DNA of 64,000 bases. Source: Parabacteroides distasonis ATCC 8503. Lineage in GTDB: Bacteria; Bacteroidota; Bacteroidia; Bacteroidales; Tannerellaceae. Under the pieces are notes generated by a model. That model searched no databases, had not been told where the DNA came from, and worked only from the letters and a program-made list of their open reading frames with translations. Below are positions 30,671 through 46,956 of the stretch, piece after piece. The position numbers and the translations under genes were made by a program. The stretch spans positions 4,726,001-4,790,000 of the forward strand of contig NC_009615.1 in the NCBI RefSeq assembly GCF_000012845.1, in the 5' to 3' direction. The stretch's first letter is position 1. Every line of letters starts with the position of its first letter.

Positions 30671-32758
30671 CTATTTTAGGAACTGGTAAGAAGTAAAAAC
30701 CTTATTATGACGTTCTCCCAACTCATTTACCATTTGCTCGGCTTCTTCTTGGGAAATCAAACCCTGTTCCTTGAATTGTTCTATCCTCTTTTTTTCGTTG
30801 CTCAATAACATACGGACAGACTTGCGAGTCACAGCCTCTTTATATGATTTAGGATAATCAATGGATATTTTTGTGATAAAATTCGATGCTCTAGTTATAT
30901 TTTTACGGATCTCGACTTGTAAAAGCGACAAGCAACTTTCATATTCGGTAGAGACTGTTTCCGAGGAGCCAAACTCGTTAACCAGTTTCAAGGACTCTTT
31001 CTGGGCTATGATCAATCCCCTTGCCAAATCGTACCCTAAAATAATTCTGTCTTGATAGTAAATATCTGCCCATTTTTGGAAAAAACGAGAGAAAAACTTC
31101 ATACTGATTATCCATGAAGGTTCCTCACAGAATTCAAAAATATCGCCTCGGTCGCATAGAGGTTTCTTTCCGTCTCGATCGTATTGTTCATCAATTGCGG
31201 CATTTAAACGTCTTTGCGTCCCGGATGAAATGACACCGTTTGTGTATAGGCTCCAATAGAGCGAGCGCTCTCTATCCAAGATTCGTAGACGTATGTCTGC
31301 CATTACGTCTTTGGTACGGACAGGCATTTCCGGATATATTTCTTTTTGAGGTAGGAACTGTTCGACAATACTCCAGTCTGTTGCTTCCAACGCTTCCTTC
31401 TGTTTCAAATCTTTTAGGTATTTTTCAGAACCTTCGTACAACTGCTTTTTTACGCTATAATCCAAAAGAAGCTTGGAGGACGGTATCTCTGCCAATCCCA
31501 ATTTCTTTAGAAGCCAACCGATTGTAGTCGCATTTATTGTCAATGTTAAAGTTACAATCCCAGCCGTAAGGAAAAGTACTTGCCGACGTATTGGTTCTGG
31601 TATCGAAAAGGTATACGATACCATCAGTGCCATCGTTAGTCCCAATGCACCACGTAATCCTCCCCAACTCAAGATCGTGGACTCTCGCACCGACAAGCCA
31701 TATCCGGACCGTTTCATGATCGGATAAAATATGGTTATTATTAATATACGAATGATATTTATCCCGGCATATACACAGATAAGAATCAATAAATCCATCC
31801 ATGAGAAGTCTACCTTCAATGCTATTACGACACCTACAATTATGAATATCAATGTATTTGCTATGTGTGCCGCCAATTCCCAAAATTGACGCATGAATTT
31901 ATTGACCTGCGGTTTCAACCTCAGACGGCCCATGTAAGAGACTGTCAAACCGAAACCGACCAAAGCGATTACTCCCGATACTTCCAAATAATTTTGCGCT
32001 ATGACAAAAGTCATATAAGCGGAAAGAATCATCACGCTGTTTTGAAGCATCTCGTCTCCATTTACATTTGTGATAAATTGAATACACAAATAAGCCAAAA
32101 GCGTACCAACCAGGGCTCCTCCGGCAACGACCATGATAAAGTCCGCTACGGGAGAATCCGAAACACCAGTAGCGGTATAGGCTCCGAAAAACAGCATGAA
32201 AAGGACAATACCGGTTCCATCGTTTAGCATCGACTCGGCATCCACTAGCGTCGAGAAACGTTTACTGGTGCCTAGCTCTTTCAACAATGCGACAATGGCC
32301 ACTGGGTCTGTCGCACTTATCAAGGCTCCGAACATCAATGCAAATGTCCAGTTCCACCCTTCATAAGAAGGGGCGAACGTTCCGATCCCTATCATCAAGG
32401 CAGCCGTCAGCAACATCGCAATAATGACACCCGGTACGGACAATATAGTGGCATTTGTCAATGTTTTTCGAAAGATATGCACGTCCAGTTCATAAGCAGC
32501 GTCGAATATCAAGATCGGAAGAAAAATATAAAGTATCATATCGGGATTAGCATTTCCGGCAAAATCGATCGATGATTTTAATATAGGAATGCTTTCCAAC
32601 CAGCCTATCCGGTCAAACGTACCGATCAATAATCCAAAGGCAAATAGCCCGACCGTGTAAGGAAGAGGCATCTTTTTTAATCCGAATTTTAAAATCGCAC
32701 CTCCCATCAACCTTATCAATACAAAAAATAATGGGGCCAGTAAATTATTCGTTTCCAT
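30671..32758 (-). CDS. CPA1-family Na+/H+ antiporter (NhaP-like)
   Basis: 695 residues: about 12 transmembrane helices in the first 420, then a 270-residue cytoplasmic tail rich in charged helices. Ion-site motifs are intact: 'LISATDPVAIVALLKELG' (Asp151) and 'AESMLNDGTGIVLF' (Asn179-Asp180), the CPA1 ND pair for electroneutral Na+/H+ exchange. The last transmembrane part has 'STILSWGGLRGALGLTMAL'. It lies directly behind the otsAB-GH15 operon on the same strand but has its own sigma-54-type promoter at 32788-32803. Confidence 0.93.
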   Translation of the reverse strand: METNNLLAPLFFVLIRLMGGAILKFGLKKMPLPYTVGLFAFGLLIGTFDRIGWLESIPILKSSIDFAGNANPDMILYIFLPILIFDAAYELDVHIFRKTLTNATILSVPGVIIAMLLTAALMIGIGTFAPSYEGWNWTFALMFGALISATDPVAIVALLKELGTSKRFSTLVDAESMLNDGTGIVLFMLFFGAYTATGVSDSPVADFIMVVAGGALVGTLLAYLCIQFITNVNGDEMLQNSVMILSAYMTFVIAQNYLEVSGVIALVGFGLTVSYMGRLRLKPQVNKFMRQFWELAAHIANTLIFIIVGVVIALKVDFSWMDLLILICVYAGINIIRILIITIFYPIMKRSGYGLSVRESTILSWGGLRGALGLTMALMVSYTFSIPEPIRRQVLFLTAGIVTLTLTINATTIGWLLKKLGLAEIPSSKLLLDYSVKKQLYEGSEKYLKDLKQKEALEATDWSIVEQFLPQKEIYPEMPVRTKDVMADIRLRILDRERSLYWSLYTNGVISSGTQRRLNAAIDEQYDRDGKKPLCDRGDIFEFCEEPSWIISMKFFSRFFQKWADIYYQDRIILGYDLARGLIIAQKESLKLVNEFGSSETVSTEYESCLSLLQVEIRKNITRASNFITKISIDYPKSYKEAVTRKSVRMLLSNEKKRIEQFKEQGLISQEEAEQMVNELGERHNKVFTSYQFLK

Positions 32759-32787
32759 ATTGATTCACTATTTAACTGCAAGGAGCT

Positions 32788-32803
32788 GGCAATTTTTGAG
32801 CCA
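32788..32803 (-). promoter_or_regulatory. sigma-54 promoter of the antiporter gene
   Basis: The minus strand reads TGGCTCAAAAATTGCC: GG and GC elements exactly 10 bp apart, close to the consensus TGGCAC-N5-TTGC. The implied start is near 32777, leaving about 19 nt before the ATG at 32758. Confidence 0.65.
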
Positions 32804-32876
32804 ATAGCGTTCGAAGATATATAATTATTTAATAATGAGATATCTATGAGCTTTGTCCTATAAAAAGAGAATAAAA

Positions 32877-32916
32877 TCTCTTTCATAGTGAAAAAATATT
32901 TCCAAAATGAAAGAGA
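32877..32916. promoter_or_regulatory. palindromic upstream site (enhancer candidate; could also terminate GH15 transcript)
   Basis: Perfect 10-bp arms TCTCTTTCAT (32877-32886) and ATGAAAGAGA (32907-32916), with a GGAAATATTTTTTCA-type core between them on the minus strand. The centre is about 95 bp upstream of the sigma-54 promoter, as for an NtrC-type activator site. A T-rich stretch after it on the minus strand means it may also work as the terminator of the otsAB-GH15 transcript. Confidence 0.5.
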
Positions 32917-32926
32917 TACAGAAGGT

Positions 32927-34714
32927 TTATTTAAAAAACAGTCGTATGTCCTCTTCCGAAAACAATATAGCGGTATTGACTAGTGCCAAATGGGAATATG
33001 CTTGAGGAAAATTCCCCAGTTGCTCCTTGGTTTCAAAATCAATGTCTTCACTGAAAAGTCCCAAGTGATTTGAATTATGAAGCATTTCCTCAAACAGACT
33101 ACGTGCTTCTTCTTTTTCTCCTATGACATAAAGAGCACGAATGAGCCAGAACGTACAAATAGTAAAGGCGGAAGAGGGAAGTCCGAAATCATCATGAGAT
33201 TTATAACGGTACATCAACCCTTTGTAAAGTAACGCATTCTTTATCGCTTGCACTGTTTTATGGTAGCGTATGTCTCTCGGATCGATAAATCCGTACGGTT
33301 CCATTAACAACAAGGACGCATCAAGGTCGGAATTACCGTAGGCTTGCGAGAAACTTTGCATCTCTTCTTTCCAACCGTTTTTCATGACATTTTCTTTGAT
33401 TACGGCCACTTCTTCCGACCAACGTCTCCGGTATGTCGGTTTGTTTAATAAATCTGCAATACGAGCTCCCCTGTCTAATGCGACCCAGCACATAACTTTG
33501 GAGGAAACAAAATGCTGTCCTTCTCCTCTAATCTCCCAAATGCCTTTGTCTGGTTTTTTCCAGTCAATCATCACATTCGTCAGGATACTTTTTACCATTT
33601 CCCACATATCTTCCACCTCGTCCAATGTACCGGGCATCAAACGATAGTATTGGTAGATCAGGTCCATTAAATAGCCGAACGAGTCATTTTGAAGCTGGTG
33701 GTAAGCATCATTACCGATCCGAACGGGTCGTGAGTTCTTATAACCGGAAAGATGTCCCAGAATAACTTCCGTCAATTTTCTTTCTCCGCGAATACCGTAC
33801 ATGATCTGGTAAGTATCGTGTTGAGAAACAAAAGTAGACTGGACAAATCTCATGAACCGCCTTGCGGCTTCGACATGGCCTATCTGGAACAAAGTTTCAA
33901 TGGACATGGAGGCGTCGCGCAGCCAACAAAAACGATAATCCCAGTTACGGACTTCTCCGATCGTTTCCGGTAGGCTAGTTGTTATGGCCGCCAATACGGC
34001 TCCATTATAAAAAGACATCAATTTTAAAACTAGGAGACTTCGCTCAATGACATCGTTATAGACCGTAAACTTCTTGGTTCGGTCAGTCCAATTTAGCCAA
34101 TAAACCAGCGTCCGGCAGTATTCCAGTTTCTCACGCTCAATGTTGACGGGGATTACTTTCTCGTTATATGAAAGTAGCAAGAACTCGTCCTTAGCCAGTA
34201 TGATTTCTTTCTGTTCCAAGATCTTGTGCAAAGGTAGTGAGGAATAAAGATATTGCCTATCTTTGCTGTTAGAAGTAGAGTAGGTCTCTATATATTCCGA
34301 GGTCGTGTTGAAAATTGTCTTTCCACGGGCATAGTCCGGAGCCGGCTCATAGTTGATTTTAAAACGGGGAGTACCTTTGATTCTGCGGATATATCGGTAG
34401 ATCTCTGCCGGACGATAACAATTGCTCGCATCGCTCAGATGGTAACAAGGCATGAAATCTACAACGGCAAATTCATTTTCTTCTGATACGAAGTTGGTCG
34501 AAAGAATATTTGTATGAGGAACATACGATTGCGATATTTGATAATCCGGAGAAACCTCGAAGCCGAAATATCCCCCTTTCTCCCGATCGAGCAATGACGC
34601 AAAGATGGAAGGTGAGTCGAAGTTAGGGAAACATAACCAATCTATACTGCCTTTATCCGAAATCAAAGCCGCTGTGCAGCAATTTCCTATTACTCCGTAA
34701 TTTAACTTGTCCAT
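32927..34714 (-). CDS. glycoside hydrolase family 15 protein (trehalase/glucoamylase-like)
   Basis: 595 residues, no signal peptide, so cytoplasmic. GH15 order: N-terminal beta-sandwich ('YGVIGNCCTAALISDKGSIDWLCFPNFDSPSIFASLLD'), then the (alpha/alpha)6 barrel with 'RNWDYRFCWLRDASMS' (about 258-273), 'GHLSGYKNSRPVRIGNDAY', 'IWEIRGEGQHFVSSKVMCWVALDRGARIAD' carrying the catalytic-acid region, and 'AYSHLALVNTAIL'. Some GH15 enzymes are trehalases. Starting 29 bp after the otsAB stop, trehalose is the likeliest substrate, giving synthesis and breakdown in one operon. Maltose or glucan hydrolysis is the alternative. Confidence 0.9.
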   Translation of the reverse strand: MDKLNYGVIGNCCTAALISDKGSIDWLCFPNFDSPSIFASLLDREKGGYFGFEVSPDYQISQSYVPHTNILSTNFVSEENEFAVVDFMPCYHLSDASNCYRPAEIYRYIRRIKGTPRFKINYEPAPDYARGKTIFNTTSEYIETYSTSNSKDRQYLYSSLPLHKILEQKEIILAKDEFLLLSYNEKVIPVNIEREKLEYCRTLVYWLNWTDRTKKFTVYNDVIERSLLVLKLMSFYNGAVLAAITTSLPETIGEVRNWDYRFCWLRDASMSIETLFQIGHVEAARRFMRFVQSTFVSQHDTYQIMYGIRGERKLTEVILGHLSGYKNSRPVRIGNDAYHQLQNDSFGYLMDLIYQYYRLMPGTLDEVEDMWEMVKSILTNVMIDWKKPDKGIWEIRGEGQHFVSSKVMCWVALDRGARIADLLNKPTYRRRWSEEVAVIKENVMKNGWKEEMQSFSQAYGNSDLDASLLLMEPYGFIDPRDIRYHKTVQAIKNALLYKGLMYRYKSHDDFGLPSSAFTICTFWLIRALYVIGEKEEARSLFEEMLHNSNHLGLFSEDIDFETKEQLGNFPQAYSHLALVNTAILFSEEDIRLFFK

Positions 34715-34743
34715 AAAAATTATTTTTTATTTGTCCACAATCC

Positions 34744-36981
34744 TTAAAAAAAATCAACGGTGGCTTTCAGTTGACCTTTTATGCTTCTGGAAGTCGTTCC
34801 GTAACTAACACCTTCACCCGACAGTTCTTCCAAAAAAGGCAATACTTCTTCCTGCGAGGACAGATTGTATTTGGCTTTTTCAGATACAATTCCAACTTTA
34901 ACTGTTATGGCGGATACTGGAAGAGCCCGGAACATATCCTCATCCGTCGTGTCATCTCCCATTGCTAGTATAAAATCATAGCGGGAAGCCAATAATAGGC
35001 GATCTACTTCCGAACCTTTTGTGTATTCTGGAGATTTTATTTCCACGACTTTGTTGCCCTGCATGATTTGTAATCCCTTTCTCAGGCAAACAGGCATTAT
35101 AGCCTTTGTTAGCTGTTGCGCTCTCAGCTCTCCCAGCCAGGCGTCCGATTCTCTATAATGCCAGGCAAGAGCAGCTTCTTTTGTCTCAAGATGAGAGTAC
35201 GGGGTTTTGCTTACAAACAAATTTAGAATAAACAATAGCTCCGAATCCCACTCTCGATTGCCTATGTTTTTATGCCATGCGCCTTTTTCCTTGTAAAATG
35301 CACCATGCTCGGCGGCAAAAGACAGAGGAAGATCTCCCAGCCATTTCTCCAATGTATAGTGGTCCCGCCCGCTATTAATGGTTACATGATTCCGAGAGTC
35401 GGAACAAAAACGCTGTAACAGGTCTCGTAATGCAGGTGTTGGAGCTGCATCTTCCGGATGATTTTTGAATGCAGTTAATGTTCCGTCGTAATCCAGCAAA
35501 ATCAAGCGCTTTTTCGCTTGGTCATATAATGTTTTGATTTCGTTCTGGTCTTGTGCGGAGATCTTTTTCTTTTGTAATCGTTTGTTTTTCTCTGCGGCCT
35601 GCCGCCATTCTCTCATGAAATCCGCAGCCCATTTGTTTACGGTTTGAACCGAAAGGATGGCTTGCATTCGCTGAAGCCTTTCTCTTTGTTCCTCCAATGG
35701 CATTTTCAATGCACGGCAAATGGCTTGTTCGATCTGGTCCGTGTCGTTTGGATTAATCAATAAAGCATCAGACAATTCAACCGAAGCACCGGCCATTTCA
35801 CTTAAAATGAGTACCCCCGGATTATCTTGTTTGGTAGCGACATACTCTTTTGCCACAAGATTCATACCATCGCGCAAAGGGGTTACCAAGGCTATATCGG
35901 CAACATAATACATCGCTACCAATTCCTCAAAAGAGAAACCGTGATAAAAATAACATACCGGAGTCCAATTCATGGTAGAGTAAGTTCCATTGATAGAACC
36001 GATCTCCTCGTCTATTTTGGTTTTCAATTCGGCATAACTGCCTACATGGTCGCGAGAGGGGACGATAACCATCGCCAATGTCACTTTCCCGTGATATTCC
36101 GGATGATTTTTCAAAAAAGAGGCGAATCCGTAAAGACGGTGCAATATTCCTTTGCTGTAATCCAGTCGGTCTACCGATATGATTAACTTATGATCTCCAA
36201 ATAGAAGTCGTGTTTTCTCTACTGCGTGGTGGACTTTGTCATCAGCTATCACATTGTGATAAAGATCATAGTTTATCCCCATCGGTAATGCATCCACACG
36301 GGTTACACGATCATTCATTTGAACTTCATCCAGATTGAAATTCTTATGAAGGATGCGTTCCGTCGCACTGATGAAATGACGCATATAATCGTGAATGTGA
36401 AAAGCGACAAAGTCGGCTCCCAAAAGTCCGTTCAGGATCTCGACCCTTTCGGGCAGAATCCGGAAAAGTTCATGTGAAGGGAACGGAATATGGTGGAAAT
36501 ACCCGATATGAAGGTTGGGAAACTTCTCACGGAGCATGCCCGGCAACAGCATTAACTGATAGTCCTGTACCCAAACCCAATCATTAGGTTCAACTATCCG
36601 AGATATCTCTTCACAAAAAACAGCATTGACTTCCCTATATGATTCCCAAAAGTTCTTTTTATATAACGTATAAGCAAAAAAGTAATGACAGAGGGGCCAT
36701 AGGGTACTGTTGCTATATCCTTCGTAGTAATTTTCATACTGCCTGTCGGATAAGAATACCGGATGATAATTATTTTTTTCCAATTGACTGCAAATGTCAT
36801 CTTTTTCCGTCTTTTGTTCTACGCAGACGCCAGGCCAACCAATCCAATGTTTTTCACAATCAACGTCCAATGACTTCAAACCTGTAGCCAGCCCTCCTTC
36901 GCTCCGTGAAAAAACAAATTTTCCATCGGAGGAACGTGTAACTTTTACAGGCAACCTATTCGAAATGATAAATAATCTCAT
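34744..36981 (-). CDS. otsAB: bifunctional trehalose-6-phosphate synthase/phosphatase (OtsA-OtsB fusion)
   Basis: 745 residues from the ATG at 36981 (MRLFIISNRLPVKVTR). A longer frame to 37023 is rejected because a sigma-54 promoter occupies 37008-37023. Residues 1-470 are GT20 synthase ('GGLATGLKSL', 'VWVQDYQLMLLPGMLR', 'YFHHIPFPSHELFRILP', 'VDRLDYSKGI', 'NLVAKEYVA'). Residues 500-745 are a HAD phosphatase ('LILLDYDGTLTAF', 'INSGRDHYTLEKWLG', 'MGDDTTDEDMF'). It makes trehalose from UDP-glucose and glucose-6-phosphate, an osmoprotectant. First gene of an operon with GH15. Confidence 0.96.
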   Translation of the reverse strand: MRLFIISNRLPVKVTRSSDGKFVFSRSEGGLATGLKSLDVDCEKHWIGWPGVCVEQKTEKDDICSQLEKNNYHPVFLSDRQYENYYEGYSNSTLWPLCHYFFAYTLYKKNFWESYREVNAVFCEEISRIVEPNDWVWVQDYQLMLLPGMLREKFPNLHIGYFHHIPFPSHELFRILPERVEILNGLLGADFVAFHIHDYMRHFISATERILHKNFNLDEVQMNDRVTRVDALPMGINYDLYHNVIADDKVHHAVEKTRLLFGDHKLIISVDRLDYSKGILHRLYGFASFLKNHPEYHGKVTLAMVIVPSRDHVGSYAELKTKIDEEIGSINGTYSTMNWTPVCYFYHGFSFEELVAMYYVADIALVTPLRDGMNLVAKEYVATKQDNPGVLILSEMAGASVELSDALLINPNDTDQIEQAICRALKMPLEEQRERLQRMQAILSVQTVNKWAADFMREWRQAAEKNKRLQKKKISAQDQNEIKTLYDQAKKRLILLDYDGTLTAFKNHPEDAAPTPALRDLLQRFCSDSRNHVTINSGRDHYTLEKWLGDLPLSFAAEHGAFYKEKGAWHKNIGNREWDSELLFILNLFVSKTPYSHLETKEAALAWHYRESDAWLGELRAQQLTKAIMPVCLRKGLQIMQGNKVVEIKSPEYTKGSEVDRLLLASRYDFILAMGDDTTDEDMFRALPVSAITVKVGIVSEKAKYNLSSQEEVLPFLEELSGEGVSYGTTSRSIKGQLKATVDFF

Positions 36982-37007
36982 ATTTGAAATATTATATACA
37001 ACACAAA

Positions 37008-37023
37008 GCAAAATCCATACCAA
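37008..37023 (-). promoter_or_regulatory. sigma-54 promoter of otsAB-GH15
   Basis: The minus strand reads TTGGTATGGATTTTGC, with GG and GC separated by exactly 10 bp and a good TTGC. The implied start is near 36996, 15 nt before the otsAB ATG, which fixes the start codon choice. Confidence 0.6.
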
Positions 37024-37082
37024 TTTGTATTTGTCATTGATAAACAGATGTTTGCAAATAGGGAAGCCTAAGTAATATTACC

Positions 37083-37107
37083 AAAATGAAAAACACTTTT
37101 TCATTTT
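37083..37107. promoter_or_regulatory. palindromic enhancer candidate for otsAB
   Basis: A perfect 25-bp palindrome: AAAATGAAAAA (37083-37093), CAC, TTTTTCATTTT (37097-37107). It lies about 73 bp upstream of the -24 element. Its core TGAAAAACACTTTTTCA resembles the core upstream of kdp (TGAAAATATCTTTTTCC). No minus- or plus-strand gene ends here, so a terminator role is unlikely. 37108-37300 holds only a weak inverted repeat (CCGAAGA at 37228/TCTTCGG at 37253). Confidence 0.55.
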
Positions 37108-37300
37108 AGTTGTTTTTTTTACTTTCAATTTAGAATTAATATTTTTAATCGATTGATATATAGTGATTTATGTTTGTTGTTTTCTAATTAGTCTGATTTT
37201 GGCATTATCTTTATCAGTTTAGATTTCCGAAGAAAGTATCATTAATATTCATCTTCGGTTGTCTGCTATAAGAAACAATGTAGAACAACAAAGAAACAAA

Positions 37301-37519
37301 ATGGTATTTTTTATTTATCAGTTAGGCTCGCTTGCCTCTGTATGGGCAATCAGCAATTTAATAAAAAAAGATGTTCCTCAAAGGATCAAAAACAAGATTA
37401 TCGTTCTGTTACTAGTAACAAGCTGGATTGGTGTTTTGGGGTATTTTTTCATTTTGAAAAACAGGATTGAAAAATGGTGGCCTTGCAAGAAGTACTTGGT
37501 TGCTCATAGAAGGATATGA
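37301..37519 (+). CDS. small two-helix membrane protein
   Basis: 72 residues from the ATG at 37301 (MVFFIYQLGSLASVWAISNL); an in-frame start at 37259 adds a polar, unconvincing leader. Two hydrophobic stretches (about 1-20 and 30-50: 'IIVLLLVTSWIGVLGYFFIL') are followed by a basic tail. The second helix loosely resembles the PLDc_N membrane segment. The gene sits between the otsAB and kdp enhancer regions. I do not recognise it; it could be a small stress-associated membrane protein. Confidence 0.4.
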   Translation: MVFFIYQLGSLASVWAISNLIKKDVPQRIKNKIIVLLLVTSWIGVLGYFFILKNRIEKWWPCKKYLVAHRRI

Positions 37520-37682
37520 GTTTCATATTATATATTATTGCAATTAAAGTTGTTTTATGTGTACCAAAATCTTTTTCTCCATTCATTCTGTAAAGATTTG
37601 AATTGTTTTTTTCTTTTTGAGCCGTGGATATAATTTATTCACGGCTTATTTAAAGGATTTGATTTCAAAAATTAGGATACAA

Positions 37683-38156
37683 ATGGAAAAGAATATGCGG
37701 ATGAAATTTTTAAAGCAACGGATAACGGTAATATTACTGTTAGTGGCTAGCGTATGTATATGTGGTAGCATCAATGAATTCTATGTCTTCGAAAATGATT
37801 ATTATTTTAAATATCTGCTGAATACTTTTACAGGAATCATCCTTTTGACAGGAATTGCCTATTTATGCTATCCTCAAAAGAAGACAAATCAGGAAAATGA
37901 ATTGGTGCTGAATGAATACAAACTGGTGTATGAAACGGAGTCTACCGCATCGCAATATTTTATTTCTGATACAGAAGCTTGGAACACATTAAGAAAACAA
38001 TTGAAAACAACAGCTCAAGGACATGCTATTTTATATATCAGCGAAAGTTGCGAATTGCCTATAATCAATAACATGATTTTAGCTAAAAAGAGAAATTTCG
38101 ATTGTTGGAAGCCTGCCTGTGCAGGGCAGATATCTAAAGATTTTGGTGAGATTTAA
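37683..38156 (+). CDS. hypothetical membrane protein; C-terminus resembles a decayed AAA+ Walker B region
   Basis: 157 residues from the ATG at 37683 (MEKNMRMKFLKQRITVILLL). Two transmembrane helices (about 9-28 and 43-65), then a soluble tail. In the tail 'GHAILYISESCELPI' lines up with the Walker B of sigma-54 activators ('GTLFLDEIGELPL'): L, aromatic, aliphatic, E, E-L-P are shared but the aspartate is lost. Since an activator C-terminus lies directly downstream, this tail may be its decayed middle, fused by deletion to a membrane-protein N-terminus. It may equally be an unrelated small membrane protein. Confidence 0.35.
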   Translation: MEKNMRMKFLKQRITVILLLVASVCICGSINEFYVFENDYYFKYLLNTFTGIILLTGIAYLCYPQKKTNQENELVLNEYKLVYETESTASQYFISDTEAWNTLRKQLKTTAQGHAILYISESCELPIINNMILAKKRNFDCWKPACAGQISKDFGEI

Positions 38157-38174
38157 AGTGATCGTAAAAAATAT

Positions 38175-38383
38175 ATGGCAGCCATAAAACGATGTCCATG
38201 GAAAGGAAATGTCAATTATCTGAAAATACGGGGAATAATATTGAATTGGACCTAGTCAGCGTTGAAAAGCACCACATTCAGAAAGTTCTCCAACATACTA
38301 ACGGATACAAACCCGAAGCTGCTCGTCCTCTTGGGATAGCCTTAACCACACTTTATAGGAAGATGGAAGCCTATGGACTATAA
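38175..38383 (+). pseudogene. remnant of NtrC/Fis-type sigma-54 activator
   Basis: In one frame from 38175 the sequence reads MAAIKRCPWKGNVNYLK, a degraded version of the 'PWPGNVREL' motif that ends the AAA+ domain of sigma-54 activators, then stops. In the next frame (38192-38383) it continues 'EKHHIQKVLQHTNGYKPEAARPLGIALTTLYRKMEAYGL'-like residues, the Fis-type DNA-binding domain that normally follows (N-G-x-x-x-x-A-A-x-x-L-G-I...T-L-Y-R-K). The order is right, the frame is broken and receiver plus most of the ATPase are absent. It is the likely former regulator of kdp. Confidence 0.65.
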
Positions 38384-38451
38384 TGTGGAACACTTTGTTC
38401 TTGCATACCCGGTAGGTTTACCTAAAACAGGCAGCTTGCCTTTTTTATATA

Positions 38452-38490
38452 CCTTTTCAAAATGAAAATATCTTTTTCCTTTTGAAAAGG
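38452..38490. promoter_or_regulatory. palindromic enhancer candidate for kdp operon
   Basis: Perfect 11-bp arms CCTTTTCAAAA (38452-38462) and TTTTGAAAAGG (38480-38490) around a TGAAAATATCTTTTTCC core, with the centre about 98 bp upstream of the sigma-54 promoter. It matches the layout of the 40-bp palindrome upstream of the antiporter gene. It lies just after the activator remnant. Confidence 0.55.
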
Positions 38491-38568
38491 ATTGAGCATA
38501 TTACATAATAATATTATTTTTTGATTATATAGCTGATAAACAATGTATTGTGCAAGAACTCGATTTTT

Positions 38569-38584
38569 TGGCACAGCTTTGGCA
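38569..38584 (+). promoter_or_regulatory. sigma-54 promoter of kdp operon
   Basis: TGGCACAGCTTTGGCA: a perfect -24 box TGGCAC and GC placed exactly 10 bp after GG; the -12 half is TGGCA instead of TTGCA. The implied start is near 38595, 42 nt before the first small gene. Confidence 0.65.
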
Positions 38585-38636: not shown

Positions 38637-38732
38637 ATGGAAGATACGTTATCATTTTTGTTCTTGTGTGCTACCGGTGTAGCATGCTATTGGTTTTTCT
38701 TCAAGTGTGTGGACTGGTTTGAGAAAATTTAA
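38637..38732 (+). CDS. small single-helix membrane protein of kdp operon
   Basis: 31 codons: MEDTLSFLFLCATGVACYWF, then FFKCVDWFEKI. One transmembrane helix with a short cytoplasmic end. It is the first gene after the sigma-54 promoter and is followed 22 bp later by kdpF. I do not know a named family; size and position suggest an accessory peptide of the Kdp complex, perhaps paralogous to KdpF. Confidence 0.55.
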   Translation: MEDTLSFLFLCATGVACYWFFFKCVDWFEKI

Positions 38733-38754: not shown

Positions 38755-38835
38755 ATGTTTTTAGCACTGTTTATACTTTGCTTATTGATCTTCGGGTATT
38801 TGATGTATGTCCTAATTAAGCCTGAAAAGTTTTAA
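38755..38835 (+). CDS. kdpF: Kdp complex small subunit KdpF
   Basis: 26 codons, MFLALFILCLLIFGYLMYVL then IKPEKF. One transmembrane helix and the family's characteristic ending (Y-x-x-x-V-L-x-x-P-E-K/R-F). KdpF stabilises the KdpABC complex. It lies 27 bp upstream of kdpA. Confidence 0.85.
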   Translation: MFLALFILCLLIFGYLMYVLIKPEKF

Positions 38836-38862: not shown

Positions 38863-40572
38863 ATGAATACAGAAATTTTAGGTGTAGCATTGCAGATATT
38901 GCTGCTGCTGGTTATCAGTTACCCGCTGGGAAAGCATATCGCCAAGGTGTATAAGGAGGGAAACGACTGCATGCGTTTCATGGCTCCAATTGAAAGATTT
39001 ATTTACAAGCTGGCGGGTATCAACCCCAATGAAGAGATGGATTGGAAGGCATTCTTGAAATCTCTGCTTATTATAAACGTATTTTGGTTCTTCTGGGGTA
39101 TGATCCTGTTGGTATCGCAAGGATATCTTCCTTTGAATCCTGATGGGAACAGCGGACAAAGTCCAGATTTGGCGTTCAACACGTGTATTAGTTTCATGGT
39201 TAACTGTAACTTGCAGCACTATAGCGGAGAAAGCGGTTTGACTTATTTTACACAGTTGTTCGTCATCATGTTGTTCCAGTTCATCACTGCTGCAACAGGT
39301 ATGGCTGCCATGGCTGGAATTATGAAGTCGATGGCCGCCAAAACAACTAAAACAATCGGTAACTTCTGGCACTATTTAGTGATCAGCTGTACACGTATCC
39401 TTTTCCCGATGTCTCTGATCGTGGGTTTCATCCTGATCATACAAGGTACGCCGATGGGCTTTGACTCCAAAATGACAATCCCGACATTGGAAGGAGCTGA
39501 ACAAACTGTTTCACAAGGTCCTACAGCTGCAATCGTTCCGATTAAACAGTTAGGTACGAATGGTGGTGGTTACTTCGGAGTAAACTCTTCTCACCCATTG
39601 GAAAACCCGACTTACCTGACCAATATTGTAGAATGTTGGTCTATTCTGATCATTCCGATGGCATTGGTATTTGCTTTGGGATTTTATCTGAAACGTAAAA
39701 AGTTAGGTTATGTGATCTATGGTGTGATGCTGTTTGCTTATCTTTTGGGGGTATTCTGTAACGTTCACTATGAGATGGCAGGTAACCCGAAAATCGACGA
39801 GATGGGTATTGACCAGTCTTGCGGTGCTATGGAAGGTAAGGAAACCCGTCTGGGTCCGGGCGCAACCGCTTTGTGGTCTGTGACTACGACCGTCACCTCT
39901 AATGGTTCCGTTAACGGTATGCACGACAGTACAATGCCTCTTTCTGGTATGGTGGAGATGTTGAACATGCAGATCAATACATGGTTTGGTGGTGTCGGCG
40001 TAGGTTTCATGAACTACTATGCATTCTTGATTATAGCCGTATTCATCAGCGGTTTGATGGTCGGACGTACGCCGGAATTCTTAGGTAAAAAGGTAGAAGC
40101 CCGAGAAATGAAGATTGCAACGATCGTTTCGTTGGCTCACCCATTCGTGATTTTGATCTTTACGGCTATCTCTTCCTACGTATGGGTATATGCCCCTGAA
40201 TTCGTAGAGAGCGAGGGTGGCTGGTTGAACAACCCTGGTTTCCATGGTTTCAGTGAAATGTTATATGAATATACTTCTTCTTCTGCTAACAACGGTTCCG
40301 GTTTTGAAGGATTAGGCGACAATACCTATTTCTGGAACTACACTTGCGGTTTGGCACTGATCATTTCACGTTATTTGCCAATTGTCGGACAGGTAGCTAT
40401 TGCAGGTCTTTTGGCAAACAAGAAGTACACTCCGGAGAGTGCGGGTACATTAAAGACTGATACGGTTACATTCGGTGTGATGACATTCTTCGTAATCGTC
40501 ATCGTTGCTGCCTTGTCATTCTTCCCGGCACAAACATTAGGCCCGATCGCCGAATATTTTAGTATTTACTAA
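38863..40572 (+). CDS. kdpA: K+-transporting ATPase subunit A
   Basis: 569 residues, full length, ten transmembrane helices. The four selectivity-filter loops of this SKT-family channel are readable: 'NTCISFMVNCNLQHYSGE', 'QLGTNGGGYFGVNSSHP', 'TTTVTSNGSVNGMHD' and 'SSANNGSGFEGLG'. It selects and conducts K+ that KdpB pumps in at very low external K+. The extracytoplasmic insert with 'DQSCGAMEGKETRLGPG' is the usual family insert. Confidence 0.98.
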   Translation: MNTEILGVALQILLLLVISYPLGKHIAKVYKEGNDCMRFMAPIERFIYKLAGINPNEEMDWKAFLKSLLIINVFWFFWGMILLVSQGYLPLNPDGNSGQSPDLAFNTCISFMVNCNLQHYSGESGLTYFTQLFVIMLFQFITAATGMAAMAGIMKSMAAKTTKTIGNFWHYLVISCTRILFPMSLIVGFILIIQGTPMGFDSKMTIPTLEGAEQTVSQGPTAAIVPIKQLGTNGGGYFGVNSSHPLENPTYLTNIVECWSILIIPMALVFALGFYLKRKKLGYVIYGVMLFAYLLGVFCNVHYEMAGNPKIDEMGIDQSCGAMEGKETRLGPGATALWSVTTTVTSNGSVNGMHDSTMPLSGMVEMLNMQINTWFGGVGVGFMNYYAFLIIAVFISGLMVGRTPEFLGKKVEAREMKIATIVSLAHPFVILIFTAISSYVWVYAPEFVESEGGWLNNPGFHGFSEMLYEYTSSSANNGSGFEGLGDNTYFWNYTCGLALIISRYLPIVGQVAIAGLLANKKYTPESAGTLKTDTVTFGVMTFFVIVIVAALSFFPAQTLGPIAEYFSIY

Positions 40573-40588
40573 TTGACAGATTAAGAAG

Positions 40589-42628
40589 ATGAGAAATAAC
40601 AAAACTGCTTCTTTATTTCCAAAGAAGCTCGTTATAGAAAGTTTGAAGCAATCATTCATTAAGTTGAATCCGCGGATGATGTTCCGTAACCCGATCATGT
40701 TTATCGTGGAGGTGGTGACATTCGTCATGTTGTTTGTTACGATTTGGGCGGCTACCACCGGTGATACGACACAAGGATCTTTCGGTTACAATATCTTAGT
40801 GTTTATTGTATTGTTCGCCACGTTGCTTTTCGCCAACTTCGCAGAGGCGATTGCAGAGGCACGAGGCAAGGCACAGGCCGACAGTTTGCGTAAGACCCGG
40901 GAAGAAACTCCTGCCAAATTGTGTGTCGGTAACAAGATTGAAACGGTCAGTTCTTCTCAGTTGAAGAAAGGCGACATCTTTATTTGTGAAGCCGGCGACA
41001 CGATTCCTTCCGATGGTGAAATTATCGAAGGTCTGGCTTCTATCGATGAAAGCGCCATCACAGGTGAATCTGCTCCGGTGATCCGTGAAGCGGGTGGAGA
41101 CAAGAGTTCTGTAACAGGCGGTACGAAAGTATTGTCCGACCAGATCAAGGTGAAAGTGACGACCGAACCGGGTGAAAGTTTCTTGGATAAGATGATCGCC
41201 TTGGTGGAAGGCGCTTCTCGCCAGAAAACTCCGAACGAAATCGCCTTGACAATCTTGCTGGCAGGTTTTACATTGGTATTCGTTGTTGTTTGCGGTACCT
41301 TGAAACCGTTTGCTGATTATTCCAACACGACGATTACGATCGCGGCCTTTATCTCTTTGTTCGTTTGTTTGATCCCGACTACGATCGGTGGTTTGTTATC
41401 TGCCATCGGTATTGCCGGTATGGATCGTGCGTTGTCTGCTAATGTGATCACCAAATCCGGTAAGGCGGTTGAAACAGCCGGTGACATTGATACTTTGCTG
41501 CTCGACAAGACCGGTACGATCACGATCGGTAACCGTAAAGCAACCCAGTTCTATCCGGTATCCGGCATTGACGAACACTCTTTTGTACAAGCTTGTCTAC
41601 TGTCCTCTCTTTCAGACGATACACCCGAAGGTAAGTCAATCGTGGAATTGGGACGTGAAAAAGGTGTACGTGTACATGATCTGAATACATCCGGATCAAA
41701 GATGATCAAGTTTACGGCAGAAACTAAATGTTCAGGAGTGGATTTGGCAAACGGTACTCGCATCCGTAAAGGAGCTTTTGATGCTATTCGTAAGATGAGT
41801 GAGGCTGCCGGCAACAAATATCCGAAAGAGGTGGCCGATTTGGTTCAGAAGATCACGAGTAACGGCGGTACTCCGCTGGTTGTTTCACAGGATGATTTCA
41901 TCATTGGTGTGATCGAGTTACAGGATATCATCAAACCGGGTATCCAAGAACGTTTTGAACGTTTGCGTAAGATGGGTGTGAAGACGGTAATGGTAACCGG
42001 TGATAATCCGTTGACCGCAAAATATATCGCTGAAAAAGCCGGTGTAGACGATTATATCGCCGAAGCCAAACCGGAAGACAAGATGAACTATATCCGTAAG
42101 GAACAGGAAAACGGTAAGCTGGTCGCCATGATGGGGGACGGTACGAACGATGCCCCGGCCTTGGCTCAGGCAAACGTTGGTGTCGCAATGAACAGTGGTA
42201 CGCAGGCTGCCAAGGAAGCTGGTAATATGGTTGATTTGGACAACGACCCAACGAAACTGATCGAGATTGTCGAAATCGGTAAACAGTTGCTGATGACTCG
42301 CGGTACGCTGACTACTTTCAGTATCGCTAACGACGTGGCCAAGTATTTCGCTATCGTACCAGCTCTGTTCATGGTTACGATCCCGGCATTGGCCCCGATG
42401 AACATCATGCACCTGCACAGTCCGGAATCAGCGATCCTAAGTGCGATCATCTTTAATGCGATCATCATCCCGATTCTGATCCCTCTGGCATTACGTGGTG
42501 TGGCTTATAAACCGATCGGTGCTTCCGCATTGCTTCGTCGCAACTTGCTGATCTACGGTTTGGGCGGTGTAATTGCCCCGTTCATTGGTATCAAGTTGAT
42601 AGATATGATTGTAAGTTTATTCATGTAA
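40589..42628 (+). CDS. kdpB: K+-transporting P-type ATPase subunit B
   Basis: 679 residues. P-type ATPase motifs: '[19 protein letters not shown]' in the actuator domain, phosphorylation site '[14 protein letters not shown]' with Asp near 306, nucleotide-binding 'GRTKMSG'-equivalent region replaced by '[14 protein letters not shown]', and hinge '[31 protein letters not shown]' to '[25 protein letters not shown]'. It drives uptake by ATP hydrolysis. The start follows kdpA by 16 bp. Confidence 0.98.
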
Positions 42629-42708: not shown

Positions 42709-43290
42709 ATGATATCAAATCTTTTTAAATCATTAAGACTGACAATTGCATTTTGTTTGTTCTTCAGTGTTTTCTACATCTTCGTTTTGTGGTTGTTTGC
42801 CCAAGTGGCAGGACCGAATAAAGGTAATGCTGAACTGGTTACATTGAATGGAAAAGTAGTGGGGGCCGCCAACGTTGGTCAGAATTTCACGCAAGATATT
42901 TATTTCTGGGGACGTCCTTCCCATGCTGGTGATGGTTACGATGCATCCAGTTCGGCAGGTAGTAACAAGGGACCTTCCAATGAAGAACATTTAGCTTTGT
43001 TGGAAGAACGTATTGATACATTCTTGGTTCATCATCCTTACCTAACCCGTGAAAAAGTTCCGGCTGAAATCATCACAGCCAGCAGTTCCGGTTTGGATCC
43101 CCATATCTCACCGAAAGCGGCTTATGTACAGGCCAAACGTGTAGCGGACGCTCGTGGATGGTCGGAAGAAAAGGTCATGGGTATCGTCAATTCTCATGTT
43201 GAGAAACCGTTATTGGGTATGTTCGGAACGGAGAAAGTAAATGTATTGAAATTAAATGTTGCGCTTGATCAAGCATCAAATAACAAATAA
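42709..43290 (+). CDS. kdpC: K+-transporting ATPase subunit C
   Basis: 193 residues: one N-terminal transmembrane helix ('LRLTIAFCLFFSVFYIFVLWLFAQV') then the soluble KdpC domain with 'IYFWGRPSHAGDGYDASSSAGSNKGPSN', 'SSSGLDPHISPKAAYVQAKRVADARGW' and 'LGMFGTEKVNVLKLNVALD', all diagnostic. KdpC increases the nucleotide affinity of the complex. It lies 80 bp from kdpB, with the hairpin in the gap. Confidence 0.97.
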   Translation: MISNLFKSLRLTIAFCLFFSVFYIFVLWLFAQVAGPNKGNAELVTLNGKVVGAANVGQNFTQDIYFWGRPSHAGDGYDASSSAGSNKGPSNEEHLALLEERIDTFLVHHPYLTREKVPAEIITASSSGLDPHISPKAAYVQAKRVADARGWSEEKVMGIVNSHVEKPLLGMFGTEKVNVLKLNVALDQASNNK

Positions 43291-43321: not shown

Positions 43322-44092
43322 ATGAAATCATTCGTAAAAAAAGTAGCAGCCTTGGCAATTGTATTCTCAATGGCATCTTCTACGTTGGCTAATGCACAGG
43401 AAGAGGATGGTAAAGTAAGTTTTTCTGTGCAGGGAGATTTGGTAAGTTCCTATATTTGGCGTGGTTTCTACCAGACTGGTGCTAGCTTCCAGCCGACACT
43501 ATCACTGGGGGTAGGTAATTTCTCTTTGACAGCCTGGGGATCTACCGATTTTCAGGGAGCAAACTCTACATCTATGCCTGCGGCTAAAGAGATAGATTTA
43601 ACGGCAGCGTATACATTCGGATCAGCTGGTCCTACATTATCTGTCGCTAGCTTATGGTGGGCAGGGCAAGGCTCTTGCCGTTATTTTAACTTCAAAAGCC
43701 ATGAAACAGATCACCATTTTGAAGCAGGTTTGGCTTACACTTTGCCTATTGAGAAGTTACCTTTGTCTATCGCCTGGAATTTCATGTTTGCCGGTCAAGA
43801 CAAAGATGAAAATGGAAACCAAAACTATTCTTCTTATGTGGAGTTGAATTTTCCATTCACAGTGAAGGGCGTCGATCTGAATGCAACTTGTGGTGTTCTT
43901 CCGTATGATGCGGGAATAACTACGTATGGAGGTGATGTAAATAGTGGATTTGCAGTAACGAATGTTGCATTGAAAGCAACGAAAGATATCAAAATCACGG
44001 ATTCTTTCTCATTACCTATTTTTACACAGGCAATTTGGAACCCTCGCATGGAGGATGCCCATCTTGTCTTGGGAATTTCTTTAAGACCTTGA
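43322..44092 (+). CDS. TorF-like outer-membrane beta-barrel protein of kdp operon
   Basis: 256 residues with a signal peptide (MKSFVKKVAALAIVFSMASS region, cleaved after NAQ). The mature part alternates short beta strands and starts 'VSFSVQGDLVSSYIWRGFYQTGASFQPTLSLGVGNFSLTAWGSTDF', the TorF putative-porin pattern (SSYIWRG...Q, then W-G-S). It ends with a terminal strand in aromatic/proline (HLVLGISLRP). Inside a kdp operon it may let K+ through the outer membrane under limitation; this role is inferred. Confidence 0.75.
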   Translation: MKSFVKKVAALAIVFSMASSTLANAQEEDGKVSFSVQGDLVSSYIWRGFYQTGASFQPTLSLGVGNFSLTAWGSTDFQGANSTSMPAAKEIDLTAAYTFGSAGPTLSVASLWWAGQGSCRYFNFKSHETDHHFEAGLAYTLPIEKLPLSIAWNFMFAGQDKDENGNQNYSSYVELNFPFTVKGVDLNATCGVLPYDAGITTYGGDVNSGFAVTNVALKATKDIKITDSFSLPIFTQAIWNPRMEDAHLVLGISLRP

Positions 44093-44105
44093 TATAATAA
44101 TACGC

Positions 44106-45227
44106 ATGGACCGAGAACAAAGTGTACAACATTTTTTAGATTTGTTGAAAAAGTCTCGTCGTGGCAATTTTAAAATCTACATCGGCATGATTGCCGGTGT
44201 AGGTAAATCGTATCGGATGCTATCAGATGCCCACCAATTACTGGAAAGCGGTATCGATGTCAAGATCGGTTATATAGAAACACATGGGCGAGTCGAGACG
44301 GAGGCATTGGTGGAAGGATTGCCTATCATCCCCCGCCGCAAGATATTTTATAAAGGAAAAGAGATCGAAGAGATGGACTTGCAGTCGATTCTCAGTATCC
44401 ATCCTGAAGTTGTCATCGTTGACGAATTGGCTCATACCAATGTCGAAGGCAGTAAGAACGAAAAGCGTTGGCAGGATGTCATGGATATACTGGATGCCGG
44501 TATCAGTGTGATCACGGCGGTCAATATTCAGCATATAGAAGGACTTAACGAGATGGTGCAGGACGTGGTTGGCATTGAGGTCAAGGAACGTATTCCTGAT
44601 ATCGTACTGGAGCAGGCTGATGAAGTGGTCAACATAGACCTTACTGCTGACGAACTGCTGGCTCGGTTAAAAGCCGGAAAAATATACAAACCCGATAAGA
44701 TACAAACAGCATTAAATAATTTCTTTAAGGCTGAACATATTCTTCAGCTTAGGGAGTTGGCATTGAAAGAGGTAGCTTTGCGGGTAGAAAAAAAAGTGGA
44801 GAATACCATTCCAGAGAATCTCGGCGTACGCCACGAAAGGTTTATGGCCTGCATCAGCAGTAATGAGAAAACTCCCCGTAAGATCATACGGAAAGTCGCA
44901 CGGTTGGCAACCCGATATAATTCCAAGTTTTTTGTACTGTATGTACAAACCCCAAGAGAAAGTTCCGACAGGATTCCGTTGGCAAGTCAAAGGCATTTGC
45001 TTAACCATTTCAAGTTGGCAACGGAACTTGGAGGAGAAATCATTCAAGTGCAATCCCCACATATAACGGATGCGATCGTACAGGCTTGTAAAGAAAAGCA
45101 AATCAGTACGCTATGTATCGGACGACCAGCTTTAAAATATCCTTCCGCTATCCTTGCGATGGTCCACTATCGGAACATGTTAGAAGAGTTGGCTCAATTA
45201 GGCATTGATTTAATAATATTAGCATAA
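44106..45227 (+). CDS. KdpD-like sensor without kinase domain (KdpD N-domain + USP)
   Basis: 373 residues. The N-terminal KdpD domain (about 18-230) has Walker A 'IGMIAGVGKSYRML' (31-35 GVGKS), 'GYIETHGRVETEALVEGLPIIPR', Walker-B-like 'VVIVDELAHTNVEGSKNEKRWQDV' and 'SVITAVNIQHIEGLNE'. It is followed by a universal-stress-protein domain (about 245-373: 'FMACISSNEKTPRKIIRKV...CIGRPALKYPS'). It stops where Proteobacterial KdpD would continue into membrane helices and kinase. The kinase is the next gene, so KdpD is split. It senses K+/ATP or c-di-AMP status in homologues. Confidence 0.93.
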   Translation: MDREQSVQHFLDLLKKSRRGNFKIYIGMIAGVGKSYRMLSDAHQLLESGIDVKIGYIETHGRVETEALVEGLPIIPRRKIFYKGKEIEEMDLQSILSIHPEVVIVDELAHTNVEGSKNEKRWQDVMDILDAGISVITAVNIQHIEGLNEMVQDVVGIEVKERIPDIVLEQADEVVNIDLTADELLARLKAGKIYKPDKIQTALNNFFKAEHILQLRELALKEVALRVEKKVENTIPENLGVRHERFMACISSNEKTPRKIIRKVARLATRYNSKFFVLYVQTPRESSDRIPLASQRHLLNHFKLATELGGEIIQVQSPHITDAIVQACKEKQISTLCIGRPALKYPSAILAMVHYRNMLEELAQLGIDLIILA

Positions 45228-45237
45228 AAATCCTTCC

Positions 45238-46956
45238 ATGAATATGAATATAAAAACAAAGTTGACTTATGGGATAGGACTTTTATTTGTCCTGATCACT
45301 TTATTAGGTGGATTGGCTATAAAAAACATTCATAATGTATCGGATGACACGCAGAATATCCTAGCGGATAATTATAATTCACTCCTTTATTCCCGTCAGA
45401 TGCTCGAGTCACTGGATGCCATTCGGGAAAATCCGAATGCTCGAAAAGAGTTTGAGGCCGGGTTGGAAGCTCAGAAAAAAAATCTGACAGAGAAGGATGA
45501 AGACGTACTAACCAACCGATTAAGTTCGAACTGTGAAAAGGCGTTGGATGACATGGATGATGAATCGATTCGGCAGATACGCCAGACGATTTATACCATT
45601 ATGGCAGTCAATATGTCTGCCATTTATGAAAAGAATGAAGTGGCTGTCCATACGGCGGAAAGGTCTCTCTTTTGGATCTGGACGGTAGGAATTGCTTGTA
45701 TCGTGATCGCCTTCCTCTTTCTGGCTCGCCTGCCACGCTCGGTCAGCGTACAGATCCAGAAATTGACGGATGGCATCAAGGAAATCACCAATGCCAATTA
45801 CAGCAAACGGCTCAATTTGGGCAATGAACCGGAGTTTAAGGAAATAGCCACGTTGTTCAACGAGATGGCCGAGCGCTTGGCCGAATACAGGAACAGTTCG
45901 CTGGAAGATATCCTGCAAGGGAAAAAATATATAGAAACAATTATCAACAGCATTGCAGAACCTATCATAGGCTTGAGTAAGGAACGGAAGATTTTGTTTG
46001 TCAATGACGAGGCTTTGACTGTTTTGAATTTGACACGGGAAAACATTATCGACAAACCGGCTCCCGAAGTGGCGTTAAAAAATGATCTGCTGCGCCGTTT
46101 GATCCGCCAGTTGGTACATCCCGATGACAATAAGGATCCGTTGAAAATCTACGCAGACAACAAGGAAAGCTATTTTCAAGTAAAATACATCCCGATCAAC
46201 GTTAACAGGCAGACTGGACTGGAGAGTAAGTATGTCGGGGATGTGATCCTGTTGAAGAACGTGACCGAATTTAAAGAAAAAGATATTGCAAAGACAACCT
46301 TTATTTCAACGATCTCTCATGAACTGAAGACACCGATATCTGCTATCATGATGAGTTTGGAACTGCTGGAAGACAATCGGATCGGAAAACTGAATACAGA
46401 ACAGGAGAGCCTTTCCAAGAACATAAAGGAAAATAGTGACCGTTTGTTGGAGATCACTGGCGAATTGTTGAAGATGTCACAGGTAGAAAGCGGTAAGCTC
46501 TACCTGAATCCGAAGATTACCAAACCGATCGAACTGATCGACTATGCCATCAAGGCGAACCGGGTACAGGCCGAGCGTTTTAACTGTCAGATCGAAGTGG
46601 AGTATCCTGAAAAGATCACCAAATTGTTTGTCGACAGCGAGAAAATTGCTTGGGTTGTGACCAACCTGTTATCGAACGCCATCCGTTATTCGTCGGAGAA
46701 CGGACGGATTATCATCGGTGCACGACAGATCGACAAAGCCGTCGAGATCTATGTCAAGGACTTCGGAAAGGGCATTGACTCGCGTTACCACGAAAGTATT
46801 TTCGACCACTATTTCCGTGTGCCGGGAACAAAAGTACAAGGTAGCGGTTTGGGACTTGCCATCAGCAAGGACTTTGTGGAAGCTCATGGTGGTACGATCC
46901 GTATCGAAAGCGAAGTCGGTAAAGGTAGCACGTTCGTGATCAGATTCAATGTATAA
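45238..46956 (+). CDS. sensor histidine kinase of kdp operon (HAMP-PAS-HisKA-HATPase)
   Basis: 572 residues: transmembrane helix 9-28, extracytoplasmic segment, second helix near 143-163, HAMP ('RSVSVQIQKLTDGIKEITNANYSKRL'), PAS (about 230-345), HisKA with phospho-His near 361 ('STISHELKTPISAIM'), HATPase N box 'VTNLLSNAIRYSSENG', G1 'VKDFGKGID', G2 'GSGLGLAISKDF'. It starts 10 bp after the KdpD-like gene. The natural partner would be a receiver-bearing sigma-54 activator such as the broken gene upstream of kdp; no intact response regulator is in the window. Confidence 0.93.
   Translation: MNMNIKTKLTYGIGLLFVLITLLGGLAIKNIHNVSDDTQNILADNYNSLLYSRQMLESLDAIRENPNARKEFEAGLEAQKKNLTEKDEDVLTNRLSSNCEKALDDMDDESIRQIRQTIYTIMAVNMSAIYEKNEVAVHTAERSLFWIWTVGIACIVIAFLFLARLPRSVSVQIQKLTDGIKEITNANYSKRLNLGNEPEFKEIATLFNEMAERLAEYRNSSLEDILQGKKYIETIINSIAEPIIGLSKERKILFVNDEALTVLNLTRENIIDKPAPEVALKNDLLRRLIRQLVHPDDNKDPLKIYADNKESYFQVKYIPINVNRQTGLESKYVGDVILLKNVTEFKEKDIAKTTFISTISHELKTPISAIMMSLELLEDNRIGKLNTEQESLSKNIKENSDRLLEITGELLKMSQVESGKLYLNPKITKPIELIDYAIKANRVQAERFNCQIEVEYPEKITKLFVDSEKIAWVVTNLLSNAIRYSSENGRIIIGARQIDKAVEIYVKDFGKGIDSRYHESIFDHYFRVPGTKVQGSGLGLAISKDFVEAHGGTIRIESEVGKGSTFVIRFNV

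Follow-up and report, generated by a model that had tools for sequence, protein, structure and literature searches.

Sequence evidence for a likely NtrC-type, sigma-54-dependent regulon of kdp and otsAB, probably with a CPA1 antiporter, in Parabacteroides distasonis

The window analysed here, a stretch of 64,000 nucleotides from Parabacteroides distasonis ATCC 8503 (NC_009615.1, positions 4,726,001 to 4,790,000) to whose first letter the coordinates below are counted, carries three neighbouring gene sets. Two are on the minus strand: a CPA1-type cation/proton antiporter of 695 aa (30671-32758; Pfam Na_H_Exchanger, E 2.3e-55), and an otsAB fusion encoding a trehalose-6-phosphate synthase/phosphatase of 745 aa (34744-36981; Pfam, and NCBIfam PRK14501 with 1045.4 bits against a cut-off of 634), followed after 29 bp by a GH15 trehalase-like enzyme of 595 aa (32927-34714; Pfam Glyco_hydro_15 and TREH_N; NCBIfam TreH1 with 440.4 bits, below the cut-off of 820). 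The first-pass annotation of this DNA had assigned Na+ export to the antiporter; the CPA1 type was borne out by Pfam, but the ion was not settled by the family scores, the best NCBIfam match being TIGR00831 with 175.4 bits, below its cut-off of 279.6.

The third set, on the plus strand, is a kdp operon, and no second kdpA was found in the genome. A conserved 31-aa ORF (38637-38732) is the first past the promoter, followed by kdpF (38755-38835, 26 aa; Pfam Potass_KdpF, 29.1 bits, cut-off 21.2), kdpA (38863-40572), kdpB (40589-42628) and kdpC (42709-43290), identified by Pfam KdpA, E1-E2_ATPase and KdpC, a 256-aa protein without Pfam match (43322-44092), a KdpD sensor part of 373 aa without the kinase (44106-45227) and a separate sensor histidine kinase of 572 aa (45238-46956; Pfam HAMP, PAS, HisKA and HATPase_c). 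A KdpD sensor domain (PF02702, E 3.2e-91) is thus linked to kdpABC, with an NCBIfam KdpD_non_kinase score of 344.6 bits, under the cut-off of 550. By our own reading, kdpF is preceded in 41 of 44 kdp loci by a 31-aa ORF whose product ends in CVDWFEKI or a similar sequence (the ORF is broken in L068, was not seen in L081, and L079 is cut); the window copy had no match in Pfam or NCBIfam and is possibly an unnamed Kdp subunit. Relatives of the 256-aa protein occupy the same position in most kdp loci, and the protein itself gave a weak NCBIfam match to TorF-like porins (E 0.0072, below the cut-off).

The first-pass annotation had placed GG-N10-GC sigma-54 promoters with short leaders (about 15-42 nt) directly before the three sets. 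All three sites were present: TGGCTCAAAAATTGC before the antiporter (32789-32803, minus strand, with 30 nt between GC and ATG), TGGTATGGATTTTGC before otsAB-GH15 (37008-37022, minus strand) and TGGCACAGCTTTGGC before kdp (38569-38583, plus strand). The leaders agreed as well, at approximately 19, 15 and 42 nt, respectively, assuming a start 12 nt past the GC. On the coding strand, the 260 bp preceding each of the three starts contained no exact TAnnTTTG, the alternative promoter element. The genome holds one PF04552 (rpoN) match, with 180.5 bits.

The sigma-54 motif by itself was near chance, in the window as in the genome. Allowing up to one mismatch, TGGYN7TTGC matched the window 96 times, where shuffled sequence gave a mean of 80.6 (sd 8.7) and five of 100 shuffles reached 96; the exact pattern occurred seven times on both strands together, the otsAB and antiporter sites being two of the seven, and the kdp site differs from it at one position. 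A genome-wide scan returned 186 matches to TGGYN7TTGCW, compared with 163 for the reversed pattern, and the motif alone was therefore dropped as evidence. What raises the sites beyond chance is their context, since the register of the site was kept at all of the 40 other kdp loci and in all nine close otsAB rows, and an upstream element is shared. When all window positions were ranked with a sigma-54 matrix derived from the 40 other kdp loci, the kdp site came first, the otsAB site 8th and the antiporter site 687th. An alternative antiporter site at 32814 scored higher in this matrix and was rejected, having no GG and standing 73 bp away from the nearer centre of the element.

This upstream element, which the first-pass annotation had not recorded, is a tandem palindrome, ACCCTTTCAWWWTGRAAGGGT, located upstream of all three operons. 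It was searched for with a model (R1) trained on the DNA upstream of kdp at 37 other Bacteroidales loci and containing no window sequence; these were 37 of 40 loci, after exclusion of a near-duplicate (L052) and two low-scoring ones (L072 and L078), and the E-values are rough. The three best places in the window were those before kdp (38451-38491, plus strand; 22.2 bits, E 7.3e-6), otsAB (37075-37115, minus strand; 19.6 bits, E 4.6e-5) and the antiporter (32877-32916, minus strand; 16.0 bits, E 6.3e-4), the next distinct place reaching only 10.1 bits. That further match (37440-37463) lies inside a small ORF without Pfam match (37301-37519), is not among the matches listed for genome G066, and was discarded. 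From element centre to TGG, the distance is 88 bp at kdp, 84 bp at the antiporter (nearer centre) and 63 bp at otsAB.

Over the genome, where 150 of 2506 candidates were scored, R1 gave nine matches; kdp was clearly the best (22.1 bits), the antiporter was narrowly second (15.8 bits, E 0.057), ahead of matches of 15.6 and 15.5 bits, and the otsAB element was not among the nine. Five others (L146, L147 and L150-L152, with 15.6, 15.5, 10.8, 10.6 and 9.1 bits) were set aside: at the threshold applied, no suitably placed sigma-54-like site accompanies any of them, and L146, L147 and L152 lie inside ORFs. The same search across 60 genomes of the order, with 95 candidates scored per genome, gave 11 genomes with a match at E 0.01 and was not used.

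An iterated matrix from the upstream DNA of the 40 other kdp loci (PWM) gave its best window places at kdp (16.4 and 10.2) and at the antiporter (9.7 and 7.3), with 8.1 at 37443 between them. The otsAB element was only the 8th single place, with 1.9, preceded by 3.4 at 19202 and 2.2 at 39614. Single-site maxima in shuffled sequence averaged 7.6, and since the largest, 16.6, comes up to the level of kdp, only the pair of elements is telling. The pair scores of kdp (26.5) and the antiporter (17.0) were each reached in none of 200 shuffles, and that of otsAB (-4.1) in 138 of 200. Seen from the window alone the otsAB element is ambiguous, and the orthologs therefore decide. An enhancer-like element was accordingly recognised at all three operons, at otsAB through R1 and the orthologs and not through the PWM pair score.

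A scan for relatives yielded 43 further kdpA loci, whose titles place all of them in Bacteroidales groups; they are no census, because the scan finds close relatives only. Upstream regions were analysed for 40 of them, L042, L063 and L079 being dropped for having less than 500 bp. With the iterated matrix the palindrome was found in every one of the 40 (scores 12.7 to 33.4), and in 36 the best second position lay 19-22 bp further upstream, with scores from strong to poor. The distance from the palindrome centre to the TGG of the best sigma-54-like site was 85-89 bp in all 40; the site was chosen as the best-scoring one within 40-150 bp downstream, so that this spacing was not imposed. GG was present in all 40 sites, having carried a bonus in the choice of site, and the second dinucleotide was GC in 26, GT in 13 and GA in one.

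For otsAB, 57 loci were collected, of which 53 could be aligned near the N-terminus and one of these was too short, leaving 52 for evaluation; a few places contribute a second row, and the starts of distant rows are approximate. All nine rows of at least 67% identity (our own included, eight genomes) had both a sigma-54-like site and the upstream element, the site starting at -27 in seven and at -41 in two. The second dinucleotide was GT instead of GC in two of these sites (L088 and L159), and the strength of the element varied, being weak in two rows (1.9 and 1.0). None of the other 43 rows, of less than 67% identity, had both: a broken otsAB copy in G066 (two rows) kept the element and lacked the site, and among the remaining 41 there were two sigma-54-like matches and no element score above 0 in 260 bp. 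In B. finegoldii and B. faecis, which account for two of the nine close rows, otsAB-GH15 stands divergently beside kdp.

These data also bear on the possibility that the palindrome serves a different regulator as its operator, the sigma-54-like sites being there by coincidence. The near-chance frequency of the motif would fit such a reading, which is nevertheless very improbable given the fixed spacing at all 40 kdp loci analysed, the joint presence of site and element at otsAB, and an NtrC-type response regulator encoded near kdp in 30 of the 43 loci. It overlaps with our main reading, as do the two further alternatives weighed below.

Exactly 12 nt separate GC (GT in one) from ATG in seven of the nine close otsAB rows, so that transcription is predicted to start at the ATG or 1-2 nt before it, and a leaderless or nearly leaderless mRNA made from a sigma-54 promoter may be conserved in these rows. 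In B. thetaiotaomicron, leaders under 10 nt make up about 3.7% (PMC7366714).

The antiporter promoter is the least well supported of the three. The sole close ortholog, in G090 (G090:C6, 91% identity), keeps the register and the element and has GT in place of GC, while 14 antiporters of 49-58% identity had no GG plus GC site within 100 bp. Antiporters of 39-44% identity exist in 18 genomes of the order besides its own. In P. distasonis TSDC17.2-1.1 (NZ_OY725790.1), a record that shares the window region with 99.8% and 99.5% identity over two pieces, about 72 bp corresponding to window positions 32772-32843 are missing; the whole antiporter site is gone, the element stays and the antiporter gene is retained, which looks like a natural promoter deletion. 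The record itself (L251) is titled plasmid 45 and is circular with 277,666 bp, yet some of its genes, queC and queF among them, look chromosomal, and next to the aspartate kinase it has a gene resembling a phage integrase; it may be a plasmid or an assembly artefact.

It is accordingly conceivable, albeit unlikely, that kdp and otsAB-GH15 form a real sigma-54 pair and that the antiporter, lacking a functional promoter of its own, is transcribed by read-through from otsAB-GH15. The footprint of the antiporter promoter consists of two sequences, one of them with GT, the strain that lost the site still has the gene, and the gap between the antiporter and GH15 is just 168 bp. This has to be set against the rank of the antiporter element, third in the window by R1, its PWM pair score, which no shuffle equalled, and its position 84 bp from one of the seven exact TGGYN7TTGC matches. 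Membership of the antiporter in a common regulon is therefore regarded as likely, and as less sure than that of the other two operons.

Among the regulators encoded near kdp in the order, GAFTGA or GSFTGA was present in 35 of 37 kdp-type rows. No intact NtrC-type regulator adjoins kdp in the window; only two relic pieces were found, in two frames. The first (38169-38225, plus strand), detected by tblastn with a regulator encoded elsewhere in the genome, corresponds to the end of the AAA+ domain (9 of 19 residues identical), and the second (38192-38383, plus strand) is a separate short ORF with a Fis-type HTH, identical to the C-terminus of that regulator at 30 of 45 residues; another P. distasonis record annotates it in its own right as a helix-turn-helix protein. 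Sigma-54 activators gave seven strong and four weak matches in the genome. In two of them, L213 (C1:2309987) and L230 (C1:3382326), the sigma-54 contact loop reads GAFTDA rather than GAFTGA.

The regulator used as query, hereafter the native regulator (G000:C1:122850-124187), is an open frame of 446 aa with Response_reg, Sigma54_activat and HTH_8 domains and a GAFTGA loop, as expected of the NtrC type; it belongs to the seven strong matches and is the one close counterpart of the kdp-linked regulators in this genome; the other sigma-54 activators are at most 40% identical over their length, one reaching 47% over part. It is 81-86% identical to the regulators of four Parabacteroides kdp loci, groups with the Parabacteroides kdp regulators in a tree (support 100/99), and would, on a circular contig, be some 0.17 Mb away from kdp. 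A second kinase adjoins it, which is 82-84% identical to the kdp kinases of seven Parabacteroides loci, against 69-71% for the window kinase; the two kinases are 68% identical to each other.

In G090, ten neighbouring genes are 88-98% identical to those of the window (two small ORFs, 68% and 73%), and an intact island regulator, 65-66% identical to the native one, occupies the position of the relic (G090:C6). G090 also carries the native regulator, and in G066 the island regulator is fragmented and the native one is present. The relic, the island regulator of G090 and the native regulator all share the residues TTLYRK in the HTH. In the tree, the island copy of G090 is nested within the Parabacteroides clade, on a long branch (98/80, length 0.92), so that the island may derive from outside the genus or go back to an old duplication. 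In G098 (otsAB 94% identical; 490 contigs), where the otsAB promoter is cut off, no regulator of more than 39% identity was found.

With the linked regulator broken, the three operons might be orphaned, the native regulator not recognising the elements and expression being weak. The comparatively low scores of the kdp elements in the window (16.4 and 10.2, against a main element of at least 23 in 34 of the 40 matrix-source loci) point in this direction. The shared TTLYRK, the promoters still holding their register and the open frame of the native regulator argue for continued use, and orphaning is regarded as unlikely. We instead favour trans control by the native regulator, with less confidence than we place in the core regulon. 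Its history may have been one of regulatory capture, in which an island from a second lineage, carrying the kdp, trehalose and antiporter genes, would have replaced the native kdp genes. The island's own activator would have decayed, leaving the relics seen here and in G066, and the island would now be run by the native NtrC-type activator, left elsewhere in the genome without kdp. Capture together with the conserved, nearly leaderless sigma-54 otsAB mRNA makes up one joint reading, which is plausible while falling somewhat short of probable.

In E. coli, low K+ or an osmotic upshift acts on kdpFABC through a KdpD-type sensor and KdpE, which is of the OmpR type and uses sigma-70. The sensor type is alike here, whereas KdpD is split and the linked regulator is NtrC-type with sigma-54. 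NtrC-sigma-54 systems comprise an AAA+ response regulator, paired palindromes about 100 bp upstream and a -24/-12 promoter; the layout of the present operons is alike, with a different palindrome and different targets. A kdp operon of Desulfovibrio vulgaris (DVU3334-3339) offers a parallel: kdpFABC is accompanied there by the gene of a response regulator that acts on this same operon, the sensor is likewise divided, with K+ sensing and kinase in separate parts, and 22 of 29 DNA-binding regulators of that organism belong to the NtrC family. It belongs to another phylum, however, and the portion of the source available to us does not state outright that DVU3334 is NtrC-type and mentions no trehalose or antiporter operon (PMC3333781). 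Sigma-54 promoters have been described in Flavobacterium psychrophilum, also of the Bacteroidota, where the genes concern protein quality control, envelope stress and gliding, and 'kdp' is absent from the accessible text (PMC9723704). No report of a kdp/otsAB/antiporter sigma-54 regulon in Bacteroidota was found in the open literature searched, including the accessible parts of PMC10434189, PMC3162934 and PMC7366714, nor does the available text of PMC12316311 contain kdp, potassium or trehalose.

Since the same sigma-54 promoter type and the same upstream element stand before three neighbouring sets, one regulator probably controls all of them. The proposal that K+ uptake, trehalose turnover and the antiporter are co-induced by one AAA+ activator is upheld for kdp and otsAB, on stronger grounds than those first given, namely the shared element, the linkage between kdp and an NtrC-type regulator across much of the order, and the conserved kdp and otsAB sites; for the antiporter it is likely. 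Control of kdp and otsAB by one NtrC-type regulator is the part that we hold with good confidence. Extending such a regulon to the phylum went too far, as the examination covered the Bacteroidales alone, and the complete set of three operons was found only in P. distasonis and G090.

Judging from its linkage, an NtrC-type response regulator would stand where E. coli has the OmpR-type KdpE, and would bind the tandem palindrome, copies of which are centred 63-108 bp upstream of the sigma-54 promoters. It would turn on K+ uptake (kdp) with trehalose synthesis and hydrolysis (otsAB-GH15), and probably the CPA1 antiporter too. The split KdpD sensor and kinase would phosphorylate it at low K+ or high osmolarity and, the kdp-linked copy being broken here, the native regulator would act in trans. 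For the control of K+ and osmotic responses in many Bacteroidales, these results provide a set of promoters with a palindrome and a fixed geometry, together with a candidate activator, and since the candidate is named, the regulator is directly testable. P. distasonis would also be a natural example of operons that retained their promoters and lost the activator linked to them.
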